This document shows, piece by piece, positions 8,724-47,650 of a stretch of DNA of 64,000 nucleotides (position 1 is the stretch's first letter; each line of letters begins with the position of its first letter). The position numbers and the translations under genes are program-made. The notes beneath the pieces were generated by a model. That model was not told the DNA's origin. It worked only from the letters and a program-made list of their open reading frames with translations, and did no database searches. The stretch is from Parasphingorhabdus sp. SCSIO 66989 (GTDB lineage: Bacteria > Pseudomonadota > Alphaproteobacteria > Sphingomonadales > Sphingomonadaceae). The stretch covers positions 2,393,501 through 2,457,500 of the forward strand of contig NZ_CP136594.1 of the NCBI RefSeq assembly GCF_032852305.1. Direction: 5' to 3'.

Positions 8724-10286
8724 CTAGCCAGCCTTTAGCCGCGCTCGCAATTCCGTCTTAAGAATTTTGCCAATATGACTACGCGGCAGCTCATCAATCA
8801 CATGCAACGCCGAAAGCCGCTGGGTCTTGCCCAGCTCGGCGTTAGTCGCAGCCAGTAACGCATCCGGATCAAGCGCCTCACCCGCCGCGGCAACAACAAA
8901 GCCCACTGGCGTCTCGCCCCAGCGCTCTGACGAGACGCCGACAACGGCAGCATCGGCGACCCCCGGCTGCGCCACCAGCGCTTCTTCAAGATCGCGCGGA
9001 TAGATGTTGAAACCACCGGAGATGATCATGTCCTTGGACCGGCCCATCAACGTTATAAATCCATCCTCATCGACCCGGCCAATATCGCCCATGCGCTGCC
9101 ATCGGTTGCCGTCTGCATCATACCAGCTGGCTTCCTCGGTCTTTTTCGGCTGGTTCTGATAGCCGCTCATCATTGTCGAGGAACGCCCGACCAGCTCACC
9201 CATTTCGCCAGGCGGTAACTGGTTGCCCTCCTCATCAATGGTTATGACTTCGCTGCCGCCCCAAGCGACACCCACTGAATGCAGCTTGTCGGGATGCTCA
9301 TGCGCCATCAGCAGGCAGACAACCCCGCCCTCGGTCATTGAATAAATCTCAACCAGCCCGCCGGGCCAGCGGCGCAACACCTCGGCCTTGAGCTCGGCAG
9401 AAAATGGCGCGCTGGTGCAATATTTGAGCTGGAATGAGGATAGATCGAAATCGTCAAATTGGGGGTAATCCATCAACCGCTGATATTGCACCGGTACCAG
9501 CATGGTGTGCGTAACACGATGCTGCGCGGCCAGCTCCAAATAGCGGGCGACATCAAATTTGCGCATCAGCAGCACCGTGCCGCCATAGCAGATAGTCGGG
9601 TTGAACAGGCCCAGCGTGGTGTTGGAATAGAGCGGCGTAGAGAGTAACGTCACTTGGCCCTCTGCGCCATAGCCCGAGCGCTCGCCCACCGCCGATTGCC
9701 GCCAGCGCATCAGCCGCGAATGGACGATACCCTTGGGCGTTCCGGTGGTGCCGCTGGAATAGATGATATTGTAGGGATCATCCGGCCCGACATCTGGGGT
9801 GGCTGGCTGCGCGCCTTCTGCCGCCATCCAGTCCATCAGCGCCGGGCAATCATCCATAGCAGCGTCGAGCATAATATGTTTAAGGTCAGGGAGTTCGACA
9901 CCGCTTTCGAGTAATTCGGTGCGCTTGGCAGAATCGATAAACAACATGTCCGCGCCGCTGTCCGCCATCATCGCAGCAAGCTGTTTCGGGGTCGCCGAAG
10001 TCGTCAGCGGTGCCGCACAGCCGCCCCCGATAATCGTCGCAATATAGACCAGCGCATAGCGCACCGTTGTCGTGCCAAGGATCGAAACCGCCTGCCCTTT
10101 GCGCAAACCCTGCGCCTGCAACTGCGCCGCAAGGCGATGGATTAGAGGAACGGCCTCACCCCAGGTCAGCCGTTCTTCATCATCATCAAAGGCCAGCCTA
10201 TCCGGTCGCTGTTCGCCATGCATCGCGATCAGGTCATGCAGATGCCCGAAAGGCTGATCGAGATAGGGCACAAGGGTATCAGGCAT
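8724..10286 (-). CDS. AMP-binding acyl-CoA synthetase
   Basis: 520-residue member of the adenylate-forming (ANL) family, which activates a carboxylic acid with ATP and joins it to CoA. The P-loop YSSGTTGTPKG lies at residues 176-186. The A5-like motif IYSMTEGG, the A7 motif QRMGDIGRVDEDGF and the A8 hinge GRSKDMIISGGFNIYPRD follow, with the catalytic lysine in RSHIGKILKTEL near the C-terminus. The acid substrate is not evident; residues near IYSMTEGG suggest a fatty or aromatic acid ligase rather than acetyl-CoA synthetase. It stands alone on the minus strand, after the VIT protein's promoter region and before the GxxExxY cassette. Confidence 0.9.
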   Translation of the reverse strand: MPDTLVPYLDQPFGHLHDLIAMHGEQRPDRLAFDDDEERLTWGEAVPLIHRLAAQLQAQGLRKGQAVSILGTTTVRYALVYIATIIGGGCAAPLTTSATPKQLAAMMADSGADMLFIDSAKRTELLESGVELPDLKHIMLDAAMDDCPALMDWMAAEGAQPATPDVGPDDPYNIIYSSGTTGTPKGIVHSRLMRWRQSAVGERSGYGAEGQVTLLSTPLYSNTTLGLFNPTICYGGTVLLMRKFDVARYLELAAQHRVTHTMLVPVQYQRLMDYPQFDDFDLSSFQLKYCTSAPFSAELKAEVLRRWPGGLVEIYSMTEGGVVCLLMAHEHPDKLHSVGVAWGGSEVITIDEEGNQLPPGEMGELVGRSSTMMSGYQNQPKKTEEASWYDADGNRWQRMGDIGRVDEDGFITLMGRSKDMIISGGFNIYPRDLEEALVAQPGVADAAVVGVSSERWGETPVGFVVAAAGEALDPDALLAATNAELGKTQRLSALHVIDELPRSHIGKILKTELRARLKAG

Positions 10287-10304
10287 CGCTGCTCTCCTTT
10301 ATAA

Positions 10305-10780
10305 TATTTCACGCAAAGAGCGCTAAGATTTTTAAGAGGTCATTTCCTGGCTTCACGGTAATTATTGGCTACTCGCTTCAGTCCTTCTTTTAAGGTCATA
10401 CCCCCGAAATTGATGAGCAAGCCGAGCGGCAATTTCATTAATCGTAAATAGGTTAGGGTCTGTTTTGTGTGAATTGGAGCAAGCTTGGAAACGGATTTCA
10501 CTTCAATAATAAGCTGGTCTTCGACCAGTAAATCAACGCGAAATGCGTCGGCATAATCCAGACCATCAATGCTTGCTCCGACCGGCAACTGCCGGTCAAT
10601 CTTCAAACCCTGTTGCCGCAAGCGATTGGCCAACACACCTTCATAGACTGATTCAAGTAAACCGGGACCCAAATCAACATGAACCCCCATTGCTGCATCA
10701 ATTACAAGGCCAGCAAGTTCTTCCAACCGGTCAGACACAGCCCGCCCTCTTAAAAATCTTAGCGCTCTTTGCGTGAAATA
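10305..10780. mobile_element. GxxExxY cassette bounded by perfect 35-bp inverted repeats
   Basis: The left arm 10305-10339 (TATTTCACGCAAAGAGCGCT...) and right arm 10746-10780 are exact reverse complements over 35 nt. They enclose a single gene whose stop codon touches the left arm. The right arm's inner end supplies that gene's AAGAGG ribosome-binding site. The arms contain a 9-nt-periodic CGCAAAG/CGCTAAG motif, shared with gene-free hairpins at 19399-19478 and 47571-47650 and a solo arm at 20477-20512. No transposase is present and no target duplication is evident, so calling it mobile is an inference from structure. Confidence 0.6.
10340..10738 (-). CDS. GxxExxY family protein (PD-(D/E)XK nuclease-like fold)
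   Basis: 132 residues with the name-giving GLLESVYEGVL (GxxExxY) near residue 24 and the nuclease-like core YADAFRVDLLVEDQLIIEVKSV, which has the D-x(n)-ExK pattern of PD-(D/E)XK enzymes. The C-terminus carries the typical TYLRLMKLPLGLLINFG. The function of the family is not established. The start is GTG at 10736-10738, seven bases after AAGAGG in the flanking inverted-repeat arm; the stop codon abuts the opposite arm. It is thus expressed from, and contained in, the repeat-bounded cassette. Confidence 0.88.
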   Translation of the reverse strand: MSDRLEELAGLVIDAAMGVHVDLGPGLLESVYEGVLANRLRQQGLKIDRQLPVGASIDGLDYADAFRVDLLVEDQLIIEVKSVSKLAPIHTKQTLTYLRLMKLPLGLLINFGGMTLKEGLKRVANNYREARK

Positions 10781-10798
10781 ATCTGAATATGCGCAAGC

Positions 10799-11197
10799 TT
10801 AAAGATAAATCTGGCTCTGCGTCACTACCGCAACCAGTTCGCCATCTTCGCGGGTGATTTTGGTCTGCCATACCGATAGACGCTTGCCCACTTTCAGCGG
10901 CACCGCCTCGCCTGTCAGCACCGAGCCAATGGGCGCATGGCTGAGGAAATTGGTCTTGCTTTCCGAGGTCGTAGATGCCTCGCATCCCTCAGGCAGGTTC
11001 TGAAAAGCCCCAAAAGCCCCCAGCGCATCGGCAAAGGTCATCAACGCGCCGCCATGGATACTCGCAGCAGGCCCACTGGCGATATTGCATATCTCCGAAC
11101 GCACGGTCAGCGTGCCGACAACGCGGTCTTTTTCCAATGTCTGGATTTCTATGCCCGTCAGCTTGGCAAACGGGACGATATCGGCGGGATTGGCCAT
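10799..11197 (-). CDS. PaaI-type hotdog-fold thioesterase
   Basis: 132 residues with the hotdog thioesterase core. IHGGALMTFADALGAFGAF carries the HGG and the catalytic-helix acidic residue, and the C-terminal strand is VVTQSQIYL. These enzymes hydrolyse acyl- or aryl-CoA thioesters in the cytosol. The frame opens at 11260, but the better start is ATG 11195-11197 (MANPADIVPFAKL), which has AAGGAG eight bases upstream. Lying beside an acyl-CoA synthetase, it may recycle CoA esters, though the GxxExxY cassette now separates them. Confidence 0.85.
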   Translation of the reverse strand: MANPADIVPFAKLTGIEIQTLEKDRVVGTLTVRSEICNIASGPAASIHGGALMTFADALGAFGAFQNLPEGCEASTTSESKTNFLSHAPIGSVLTGEAVPLKVGKRLSVWQTKITREDGELVAVVTQSQIYL

Positions 11198-19398: not shown

Positions 19399-19478
19399 TT
19401 TCACGCGAAGGCCGCGAAGGTTTTCAAGAGGGCGTTGCTTGGCGAAACCTCTTCGCGCCTCCGCGGCTCCGCGTGAGA
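19399..19478. repeat. Gene-free 80-nt hairpin related to the GxxExxY cassette arms
   Basis: The left arm 19399-19431 (TTTCACGCGAAGGCCGCGAA...CAAGAGG) aligns without gaps to the left arm of the GxxExxY cassette at 27 of 33 positions. The right arm 19448-19478 is its imperfect reverse complement. The loop is 16 nt. It lies just upstream of the SOS promoter of the Y-family polymerase. Confidence 0.75.
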
Positions 19479-20285
19479 TTATTCCCCGCCCGCTTGCGGG
19501 AGAGGAGTGACTGGGTGGGTCTTCTCTGTAAGAACTACACAAGCAGACAGCCCCAATACAACCATCCCGGTCACCATAGGATCATAATGCGATCCCATAA
19601 CCGGAATCAGCATCCAGCTCAGATTACTCATGGTGTGGAACAGCACGGCAGACATAAGCGCCTGACCGCTGCGCATATACAGCCAGATAATGATGATCCG
19701 CCGTGCTATGGTGCCAAGCGCCCACCAGAGGATCCATTCCACATTGCGGTCCGCCTGTAACAGCGGCGGCAGGTGCCAGATTGCGGCGATGAGCCCGACA
19801 CATACACCCGCGCCGACTATCCCGTATCTCCGGGCAAGCGGAGCGGTGGCAAATTGGGTCCAGCCATATTCCTCTGCCAGAGCAGACACGAAAAAGAGGC
19901 CGAACAGCAATACTATCTGAACCAGGTCCCATTGCGGCGCAGGCAGTGTGTCACCGGTTGCTGCCTGGATCGCTGCAGAAACCAGCATCACAAAGGGCAT
20001 TGTGCCGATCGCCAATATCCAGACCCATAGCTTCATCCCGCGAATGTCTGCCACGCTGGCGAGAAATGATCCCAATGTTGCTCGTCCTTCGGCTCGCAAG
20101 ACCAGCAGCGATGCCGTCAGGAACGGAACCACCACCATGGTAGCGCTGACGGGTAATCCGGGTAGGATTTGGGCATCGGCCTGCCAGCCTATCCACCAGA
20201 ATGGTATTGAGAGCAGAAAGACCAGCGCGAAGAATGTGAAGGCACTTCTCTCGGGCAAGGGTTGGTCTAAATCTGCGCTGGTCAT
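19479..20285 (-). CDS. CPBP family intramembrane metalloprotease
   Basis: 268 residues with about seven or eight hydrophobic helices. It carries the CPBP/Abi motifs: a glutamate pair in SALAEEYGWTQF, a first histidine in AAIWHLPPLL and the last motif FHTMSNLSW. Members cleave or modify substrates within the membrane (CAAX-protease/bacteriocin-processing type), and several act in peptide self-immunity. The last residues (HPVTPLPQAGGE) are encoded by what looks like an intergenic repeat, so the C-terminus may have been altered by repeat insertion. It stands alone between repeats. Confidence 0.85.
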   Translation of the reverse strand: MTSADLDQPLPERSAFTFFALVFLLSIPFWWIGWQADAQILPGLPVSATMVVVPFLTASLLVLRAEGRATLGSFLASVADIRGMKLWVWILAIGTMPFVMLVSAAIQAATGDTLPAPQWDLVQIVLLFGLFFVSALAEEYGWTQFATAPLARRYGIVGAGVCVGLIAAIWHLPPLLQADRNVEWILWWALGTIARRIIIIWLYMRSGQALMSAVLFHTMSNLSWMLIPVMGSHYDPMVTGMVVLGLSACVVLTEKTHPVTPLPQAGGE

Positions 20286-20640
20286 TCAGTTTTGGCCTGT
20301 TTTGCCACCACATGCGTTATCAGGGGCGAGATTTCACGTTTGAGCGCTCAACCTGCGTAGTGCAAGCGGATATCCCCCACCCCGCTGCGACTAACCGCCT
20401 TCGCTAAAGCTACGGCGCTAAGTCTCGCTACCCCTCCCCTGAAGGTGGAGGGGAAACACTGGCGCAATCCCCTTCGCGCTCTTGATAATCTTCGCGGCCT
20501 TCGCGAGAAATACTTGGCTTGGTGAGGGCTTGCCACCGATAGAATTGGTCGCGACCATCGTAAAGCTCGCCTCCGGCTTCGCCCCCTCCACCGTCTTCGA
20601 CGGTCCCCCTCCCCGAGCAAGCTCGGGGAGGATTTACGGT
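20286..20640. other. 355-base intergenic space filled with repeat fragments
   Basis: No gene is visible. It holds a fragment of the CCCCTCC/GGAGGGG repeat family with the CCCCGCTGCGACTAA core (about 20374-20454), a solo arm of the 9-nt-periodic family (20477-20512), and a short hairpin (CTCCCCGAG / CTCGGGGAG, about 20608-20632) just past the stop codon of dinB. Confidence 0.7.
20477..20512. repeat. Solo arm of the GxxExxY-cassette repeat family
   Basis: CTCTTGATAATCTTCGCGGC followed by CTTCGCGAGAAA matches the right-arm orientation of the family (CCTCTT...CGCGTGAAA). No partner arm is found nearby. Confidence 0.55.
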
Positions 20641-27517: not shown

Positions 27518-27666
27518 CCCCTCCTCTTCAGAGGAGGGGTTGGGGTGGTGGCGAGGCAAAGCCGAGCTCGCGTCAGCGAACTCATCGCGTGCGGCAACAC
27601 CACCCCGCTGCGACTAAGCTCGCTTCGCTCACTAAGTCGCACTGCCCCTCCTCTGAAGAGGAGCGG
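27518..27666. repeat. Dispersed CCCCTCCTC/GAGGAGGGG repeat, copy between hisH and hisA
   Basis: Begins and ends with a perfect 9-bp hairpin (CCCCTCCTC-TTCA-GAGGAGGGG; the outer copy has one mismatch) and contains a CCCCGCTGCGACTAAG core with its partial complement. Related copies lie at 20374, 33733, 38215 and 43437. Confidence 0.85.
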
Positions 27667-38214: not shown

Positions 38215-38345
38215 CCCCTCCTCTTCAGAGGAGGGGCAGTGAGACTTAGCGAGCATAGCGAGCTCTAGTCGCAGCGGGGTGGTGCAGCGGCACGGACTGC
38301 ACTTTGCGACTCCACCACCCCAACCCCTCCTCTGAAGAGGAGGGG
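38215..38345. repeat. Dispersed CCCCTCCTC/GAGGAGGGG repeat, copy before the alcohol dehydrogenase
   Basis: Starts CCCCTCCTCTTCAGAGGAGG and ends with the complementary CCCCTCCTCTGAAGAGGAGG hairpin. The core has GACTTAGCGAG...AGTCGCAGCGGGG. It begins 9 bases after a stop codon. Confidence 0.85.
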
Positions 38346-43436: not shown

Positions 43437-43627
43437 CCCCTCCTCTTCAGAGGAGGGGAGTGATCGGGTCGAAATGTCTCCCAGGCATTTCTGAACCTTG
43501 CCGGGGGCAAGGTTCACCCGAACACTGGTGGTGGAGTCACTAAGCGCAACACCACCCCGCTGCGACTAACCACCTCGGCTTACGCTCCGGCGCTAAGTCT
43601 CACTGCCCCTCCTCTGAAGAGGAGGGG
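43437..43627. repeat. Dispersed CCCCTCCTC/GAGGAGGGG repeat, copy after the esterase
   Basis: Starts CCCCTCCTCTTCAGAGGAGG and ends CCCCTCCTCTGAAGAGGAGG. The core includes CACCACCCCGCTGCGACTAA. It fills the gap between the convergent esterase and ATP12 genes. Confidence 0.85.
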
Positions 43628-47570: not shown

Positions 47571-47650
47571 GTCTCGCACAAAGGCGCAAAGGCACGAAGA
47601 GCGCGCATCAAGAATAACGCTCTTTGTGCCTTTGTGGCTTCGTGCGAAAC
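47571..47650. repeat. Gene-free 80-nt hairpin of the 9-nt-periodic CGCAAAG family
   Basis: The arms 47571-47603 and 47618-47650 are 33 nt each, reverse complements at 28 positions, with a 14-nt loop. Each arm repeats a 9-nt unit (CACAAAGGC type) three times. Size and layout equal the hairpin at 19399-19478. It sits between alaS and crcB. Confidence 0.8.

Follow-up and report, generated by a model that had tools for sequence, protein, structure and literature searches.

In the REPIN/RAYT systems, as set out in PMC3116915, the copies of the RAYT gene are mutually distinct and lie beside inverted palindromic repeats. Gene-less inverted REP doublets of about 70 nt, with a short spacer, are abundant there, and the flavour of the repeat is tied to the resident gene. 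REP hairpins carry a GTAG tag according to PMC3733652. The same source treats the CGTC REPs, which in the words of its authors are without a dedicated transposase; some CGTC REP dimers have spacers with complementary ends, and Caulobacter is named as CGTC-positive. A further system is the intervening sequence in the 23S rRNA of Coxiella, which PMC4990558 describes as a small ORF between 28-bp terminal inverted repeats, with heptamer repeats upstream of the start codon and excision by RNase III.

The locus considered here lies in a window of 64,000 nt from the genome of Parasphingorhabdus sp. SCSIO 66989 (G000, 3.27 Mb), where a gene encoding a GxxExxY protein is enclosed by two inverted arms (Table 1). 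To our knowledge, no function goes with the family name GxxExxY, and the repeats that surround these genes lie dispersed over genomes with no explanation. In PMC8934634 GxxExxY is only a passing domain name, and the term also occurs in PMC12085832.

Table 1. Positions of the arms, the gene and the gene-less arm copies in the 64-kb window
Feature	Position in window	Strand	Basis or remark
Left arm (3' arm of the gene)	10305..10339	+	exact 35-nt inverted repeat
28-nt core of the left arm	10309-10336		three units: CGCAAAGAG CGCTAAGAT TTTTAAG
Gene for GxxExxY protein, 132 aa, predicted PD-(D/E)XK nuclease fold, GTG start	10340..10738	-	PF13366, TIGR04256; AlphaFold2 model
Right arm (5' arm of the gene), left-arm core inverted	10746..10780	-	exact 35-nt inverted repeat
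AAGAGG, Shine-Dalgarno-like, at the inner end of the right arm, 7 nt before GTG	10746..10751	-	read from sequence
Gene-less doublet of the window arm type, about 78 nt	19399..19476	.	sequence; minus-strand arm also matched by R1 (genome 2412951-2412976)
Lone arm of the type found in the window element; faces the arm at 19399	20471..20512	-	sequence
Gene-less doublet of 80 nt, nested between the palindromes CCGCGCAAGCGG / CCGCTTGCGCGG	47571..47650	.	both arms matched by R1

An earlier note on this DNA, made from its letters, had described the arms as exact reverse complements over 35 nt, and this is borne out. With 406 nt between them (10305-10339 / 10746-10780), they form the longest perfect inverted pair in the window in an exhaustive scan, which took in perfect pairs from 16 nt upwards whose arms are less than 2 kb apart; the next longest measure 22, 22, 19, 16 and 16 nt. 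At 93% identity the pair extends to 42 nt (10298-10339 / 10746-10787). A chance palindrome is ruled out by this rank and by the family-wide occurrence of the arms. That the gene fills the interval was also read correctly, since its stop codon (10340-10342) directly adjoins one arm, which ends at 10339, and 7 nt separate its GTG from the AAGAGG of the other. The neighbours of the element are long protein-coding frames, by eye an acyl-CoA ligase and a thioesterase. No T run of the kind a terminator or attenuator would call for was seen in the arms by eye, and an Rfam search of 10000-11100 gave no family at gathering score, two matches far below it and no rRNA match.

The packing of the gene between its arms was compared in 60 elements, out of 128 loci, in which both arms were recognised. 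The start codon stands beyond the arm in 58 of the 60, at a median of 9.5 nt after it and within 16 nt in 41 of these 58. At sensible spacing, 23 of the 41 close starts have a Shine-Dalgarno-like tetramer. The proposal that the boundary repeat is also the translation signal is thus apt for the window element and describes a common arrangement, but does not stand as a universal rule. At the opposite end, 19 of the 60 elements have their stop no more than 20 nt from the inner edge of the 3' arm, and in 25 the frame runs on for more than 20 nt into this arm or beyond it.

All eight TIGR04256 matches in the Parasphingorhabdus genome have bounding inverted arms, which differ from element to element. 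The window arm recurs at three more places in the genome with at most three mismatches (reversed control 0). Among the eight elements, L010 is close kin of the window element, with 83% protein identity and a shared arm tail, GCGCTAAGATTTTTAAG. In another (L009), the left arm of the GxxExxY element appears to be broken at approximately 513-1440 by a sequence that recurs identically several times elsewhere in the genome and is, to judge by these copies, probably an insertion sequence.

The arms are not peculiar to this genome. A set of relatives was made up of the best 80 of 575 loci from named genomes together with the eight own loci, and 82 remained when six at contig ends were left out. By the criterion of a local score of at least 14 for an inverted pair between 220-nt flanks, 69 of the 82 loci have an arm pair over threshold, namely 8/8 of the own loci and 61/74 of the relatives, which belong to many phyla. 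Windows shifted by 900 nt gave 0/157, and upstream flanks set against the downstream flanks of other elements gave 65/406. By record title, the armed loci come from Alphaproteobacteria, Desulfobacteraceae, Verrucomicrobiota, Planctomycetota, Chloroflexi, Cyanobacteria, Bacteroidota, Gemmatimonadaceae, Fermentibacteria and KSB1. In a further set of loci, from 398 genomes of the phylum, arms were found in 20 of 28 (30 of the places listed, less two at contig ends; control 0/52). A regular-pattern search found 119 inward-facing arms within 260 nt of the 82 genes versus 30 outward-facing ones, with an inward arm on both sides of 46 genes and on one side of 17; the pattern occurs 16 times in 277 kb of distant DNA. 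The search for the same arms at other GxxExxY genes, which the earlier note had proposed as a check, therefore turned out in its favour. The GxxExxY gene with its arms is one member of a large and widespread family of small repeat elements. The titles and abstract beginnings listed by searches of open-licence PMC papers contain no account of such arms, and the family is apparently undescribed.

Each arm consists of three tandem octamers, TCNCRCNNAG-N-CRCNNAG-N-CRCNNAG, in an ungapped alignment of 44 chosen arms; because these arms were picked by regular expression, the invariant columns of the consensus partly reflect that choice. The 8-nt period also appears in an unforced test on 98 elements, where identity at lag 8 is 0.39 versus 0.28 after shuffling and lesser peaks stand at lag 2 (0.35) and lag 10 (0.34). 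Agreement between arms was measured in the 60 elements, out of 128, whose two arms could both be parsed, taking the best-matching pair where several fit. The two arms of one element agree at 23.6 of 26 positions, compared with 19.2 after shuffling. For the variable NN, the two arms match in 69% of cases (22% shuffled) and the units within one arm in 62% (21% shuffled). Pairing of the arms does not demand this likeness of units within an arm; it would follow if the same protein recognised every unit, or if units were copied locally. Elements with more similar proteins also tend to have more similar arms (Mantel r 0.36 between arm similarity and protein identity, with a maximum of 0.15 in 2,000 permutations, phylogeny ignored).

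The arms also occur without the gene. With R1, a sequence-only model of the arm, at least 150 arms were found at E up to 1 in the Parasphingorhabdus genome, five in its congener G001 and none in the congener G002; TIGR04256 genes number eight in the first and none in either congener. Among the 149 arms listed for the own genome there are 51 inward pairs and 47 arms without a listed partner, while one adjacent pair faces outward and two lie on one strand. Most of the inward pairs (43 of the 51) are gene-less and 60-79 nt long, whereas two are gene elements of about 440 nt. In the second doublet of the window, the R1 matches lie at genome 2441074-2441099 on the plus strand and 2441122-2441147 on the minus strand. 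Near the first doublet, two window-type arms face each other across approximately 1.1 kb (19399-20512), around what by eye is a gene for a CPBP-like membrane protease (19479-20285). These two arms are possibly an arm pair with a passenger gene.

Arms and gene tend to be found in the same genomes. In the survey of 398 genomes (E 0.01, stricter filters, at most 19 arms scored per genome), arms were detected in 54, the gene in 65 and both in 35, versus 9 expected (Fisher 5e-19, relatedness ignored). Among genomes of the bacterial family of the window, arms occur in 7/7 with the gene versus 4/12 without it (p 0.013). No R1 arm match was obtained in 30 of the 65 gene-bearing genomes, some of which carry arms of another flavour, and no gene was detected in 19 of the 54 arm-bearing ones. 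In 15 further genomes, chosen for having the gene, R1 matched in 13 at E 0.1, from 1 to 121 times. Among 20 stretches around R1 matches, those of Cerasicoccus and Sphingomonas have the same hairpin plan, with some doublets back to back. Several others contain a single recognised arm, and L252 (Nostoc) encloses a gene.

A closer tie between gene elements and doublets comes from three rare arm variants. Each links a gene element with a gene-less doublet in its own genome, and among 263 loci none was met in a second genome. Variant GCGCTAAGATTTTTAAG is found in the gene elements of the window and L010 and in gene-less doublets of L003 and L004, two loci that were chosen through this variant. The links through the other two variants were unselected: GTTTCATAAAAGCCACAAAG joins the gene element L012 to a gene-less doublet nested in L004, and GGTTCAGGGAAGGCGC joins the gene element L203 to a gene-less doublet in L212. 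The earlier suggestion that the ends are recognised by the encoded protein finds only indirect support, in these private variants, in the tendency of the units to share one flavour and in the way in which arm similarity follows protein identity. Doublets nested inside other doublets were seen in L003, L004, L205 and L212. In the genome G247 (L206, L208) the arms are interleaved (A B A' B') rather than nested, and arm stacks of unequal number stand on the two sides.

At six of the seven other own loci, the same neighbours are found in G001 without the element, for example dppB-dppC and hemB-carbonic anhydrase (genes named by eye). Gene-less doublets of G247 (L208, L209) and G253 (L211) are likewise absent from congeners. 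The empty sites that the earlier note had suggested looking for thus exist for six own loci, but not for the window locus itself: its orthologous site in G001 (L021 1228-2076) holds a gene, by eye for a PIG-L-like deacetylase, between the same two neighbours, and so is not a clean empty site. In alignments against relatives of approximately 70-92% identity, no target-site duplication was readable at the six own loci or at four loci of another genus, among which the alignment of L207 is uninformative. The reading of the locus as a repeat-bounded cassette is strongly upheld: the arms accompany the gene family in many phyla, there are copies that lack the gene, and in relatives the neighbouring genes are present with no element between them. 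No related strain was found with the gene at the same locus and no arms, and the arms do accompany the gene elsewhere, although 13 of 82 and 8 of 28 homologues lack an arm pair over threshold. A non-autonomous mobile unit is a better description of the gene-less doublets than of the copy that carries the gene.

A different history may apply next to fabG. Of 128 loci, 19 have the start of a FabG-like gene just downstream, and the flavours of their arms differ; the end of a FabD-like gene lies upstream in 13 of those 19 versus none of the other 109. This suggests that some of the family is of old standing and vertically inherited, or that the site is a hot spot; if old, it is a site at which both arms have changed together. 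In many sphingomonads a GxxExxY gene is retained just upstream of fabG while the arm flavours change.

The window protein matches PF13366 (E 4.7e-35, 120.9 bits, cut-off 22), the only family found in the gene of the element, and TIGR04256 (E 5.7e-36, 123.4 bits, cut-off 35), and it has the GPGLLE..Y motif, with G24..E29..Y32. Its AlphaFold2 model (pLDDT 93.9, pTM 0.87) has the order alpha-alpha-beta-beta-beta-alpha-beta-beta. The putative catalytic residues E29, D69, E79 and K81 are conserved in 128/128 homologues, and 126/128 have no stop within the matched region. On the model, the fold can be assigned with confidence to PD-(D/E)XK, the core D and (D/E)xK being present, and nuclease activity is predicted. 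The structural matches include SSO0001 (4ic1; Z 9.3, rmsd 4.2, 100 residues), which we take to be a Cas4, the Cas4 Pcal_0546 (Z 6.7, rmsd 3.4, 106 residues) and Hjc 1gef (Z 6.7, rmsd 3.4, 87 residues). Restriction nucleases, Cas4 and Hjc are among the matches at Z 6-8, a range in which values below 8 may reflect merely a common arrangement. By title, the PD-(D/E)XK entries are mostly DNA nucleases; tRNA-splicing endonucleases are also present. Foldseek with the model gave no match at E 0.001 or better, and a PDB sequence search with the protein gave none at E 1. Phage or plasmid cargo was rejected as an identity for the gene, the protein query matching 0 of 50,697 phage records and 8 of 72,556 plasmid records.

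The layout is met a second time around an unrelated protein. Genes of TIGR02436 (S23, four-helix bundle) have inverted arms in 20 of 30 loci (L153-L182; control 0/59), and the 20 armed loci show a 7-nt period, with lag-7 identity of 0.59 versus 0.31. The Parasphingorhabdus genome itself has no TIGR02436 match. These arms are built of tandem 7-mers such as GTAGGCA and resemble the heptanucleotide repeats known from cyanobacteria. The ORF within the Coxiella intervening sequence is of the same S23 kind. The S23/four-helix-bundle protein is not known as a nuclease, and the shared layout argues that arms may have a purpose other than being recognised by a nuclease.

Other repeats are present as well. 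In the Parasphingorhabdus genome, a loose pattern finds palindromes of the form CGTCGGCCCCGCGCAGGCGGGGCCA on both sides of 14 of 20 sampled doublets, on one side of three and on neither side of three; under a strict CGTC REP pattern the figures for the same doublets (L183-L202) are 10, 5 and 5. These palindromes agree with the CGTC REPs of PMC3733652. Two repeat families, CGTC-type REP pairs and doublets, are thus compounded in this one genome. The strict pattern was found around arms in 0/30 loci sampled in other genomes. The genome has a single Y1 transposase gene (PF01797), elsewhere than the window element, with no GGCCCCGC or GCGGGGCC within 1.5 kb of it. That GxxExxY is the general CGTC-REP enzyme is unlikely, because Caulobacter, though CGTC-positive, had no TIGR04256 match among the control genomes. 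Palindromes of the type CCCCTCCTCTTCAGAGGAGGGG, another repeat, form inverted pairs in the window at 38215-38345, 43437-43627 and 27521-27663.

Taken together, the locus is on balance probably part of a REPIN/RAYT-like system, with a nuclease gene and hairpin doublets maintained in trans, built on an unrelated enzyme that would recognise, cleave and copy or insert the arms. The paired arms, each of three tandem octamers, would be the terminal sites of the element. The PD-(D/E)XK nuclease may act on these sites at the DNA level, most likely on a hairpin or cruciform of the inverted pair. In this way it would support its own element in cis and, in trans, the gene-less doublets with two arms around a short loop, a Cas4/Hjc-like nuclease taking the place of the HUH tyrosine transposase of REPIN/RAYT. 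Mobility of the element by the encoded nuclease is a prediction, and the best reading. If it is true, a nuclease that is neither HUH nor DDE stands at the centre of a REPIN-like system, which also bears on the question, raised in PMC3733652, of what mobilises CGTC REPs. Tying GxxExxY to the arms makes both testable, since it provides a defined protein, a defined site and a set of gene-less copies.

Alternatively, pairing of the arms might take place in the transcript: a host RNase such as RNase III would cleave the stem, the encoded protein would bind the RNA or trim it, and spread would be rare and passive. Such an RNA element would share its layout with the Coxiella intervening sequence as described in PMC4990558. 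The arms of the TIGR02436 genes, with their strong 7-nt period, would suit it too, and elements that stand between close genes, as before fabG, are likely transcribed. An RNA role of the arms is weakened, however, by mismatches between them that show no G-U bias: in the sense RNA of strict arms, 44 are G-U-compatible versus 41 of the A-C type, and in a looser arm set the numbers are 144 and 160. The structured-RNA alternative of the earlier note accordingly finds no support in the mismatch patterns. Nor does pairing require the tandem units of one arm to agree, the fold matches are by title mostly DNA nucleases in spite of the tRNA-splicing endonucleases among them, and Rfam knows no family at this place at gathering score. 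We regard an RNA element of this kind as unlikely.

It is quite unlikely that the doublets are moved by a RAYT or an unknown CGTC-REP enzyme, with GxxExxY as a passenger or as a cleavage or repair factor that is tolerant of hairpins. Many doublets of this genome do carry CGTC-type REPs, so that another system may have amplified them, and a Y1 transposase gene is at hand. The strict REP pattern is nevertheless confined to this genome among the loci sampled, the Y1 gene lacks GGCCCCGC and GCGGGGCC within 1.5 kb, and private arm variants tie the doublets to resident GxxExxY genes. A host-kept small regulatory or defence gene is very improbable; in that case the arms would be autoregulatory operator repeats and the dispersed arms additional places where this protein binds. 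The tandem octamers look like binding sites in series, one arm lies 5' of the start codon and a copy stands upstream of fabG in 19 of the 128 loci, but this leaves the 3' arm, the gene-less inverted doublets, their nesting and the patchy presence unexplained. The REPIN/RAYT-like reading can be carried further, although only tentatively and with some doubt: GxxExxY may be the enzyme of an undescribed, phylum-crossing hairpin transposition that reads octamer arms specific to each element, moves or copies doublets in trans and has here captured CGTC REP dimers, with the S23 heptamer elements as a second such system. Were this so, one lineage of orphan CGTC REPs would gain a candidate mobiliser.

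Among known systems, Cas4, archaeal Hjc and other PD-(D/E)XK nucleases are alike in fold, while the window protein is only 16-18% identical to them and shorter than Cas4. CGTC-tagged REP dimers are similar in that CGTC-type REP pairs frame many gene-less doublets of this genome, and differ in that no such REP accompanies the 30 loci sampled in other genomes. The intervening sequences of 23S rRNA, as portrayed in PMC4990558, likewise have a small ORF between terminal inverted repeats of about 28 bp and short tandem repeats before the start. Their helical-bundle protein, however, is unrelated to GxxExxY and their repeat unit is 7 nt instead of 8. Those described there lie in rRNA and are cut by RNase III, whereas the window element lies between protein-coding genes and its ORF belongs to PF13366 rather than S23. 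REPIN/RAYT differs in its HUH Y1 enzyme, in place of which the window element has PD-(D/E)XK, and in its GTAG-tagged hairpins, where the window element has arms of three octamers that pair with each other; several distinct GxxExxY genes also share the one genome. Because the enzyme is different and the GTAG tag is absent, the element family is not a member of REPIN/RAYT. With the REPIN/RAYT systems it nonetheless has in common distinct gene copies beside inverted repeats, abundant gene-less doublets that carry the flanking repeat of the gene, and a repeat flavour tied to that gene.
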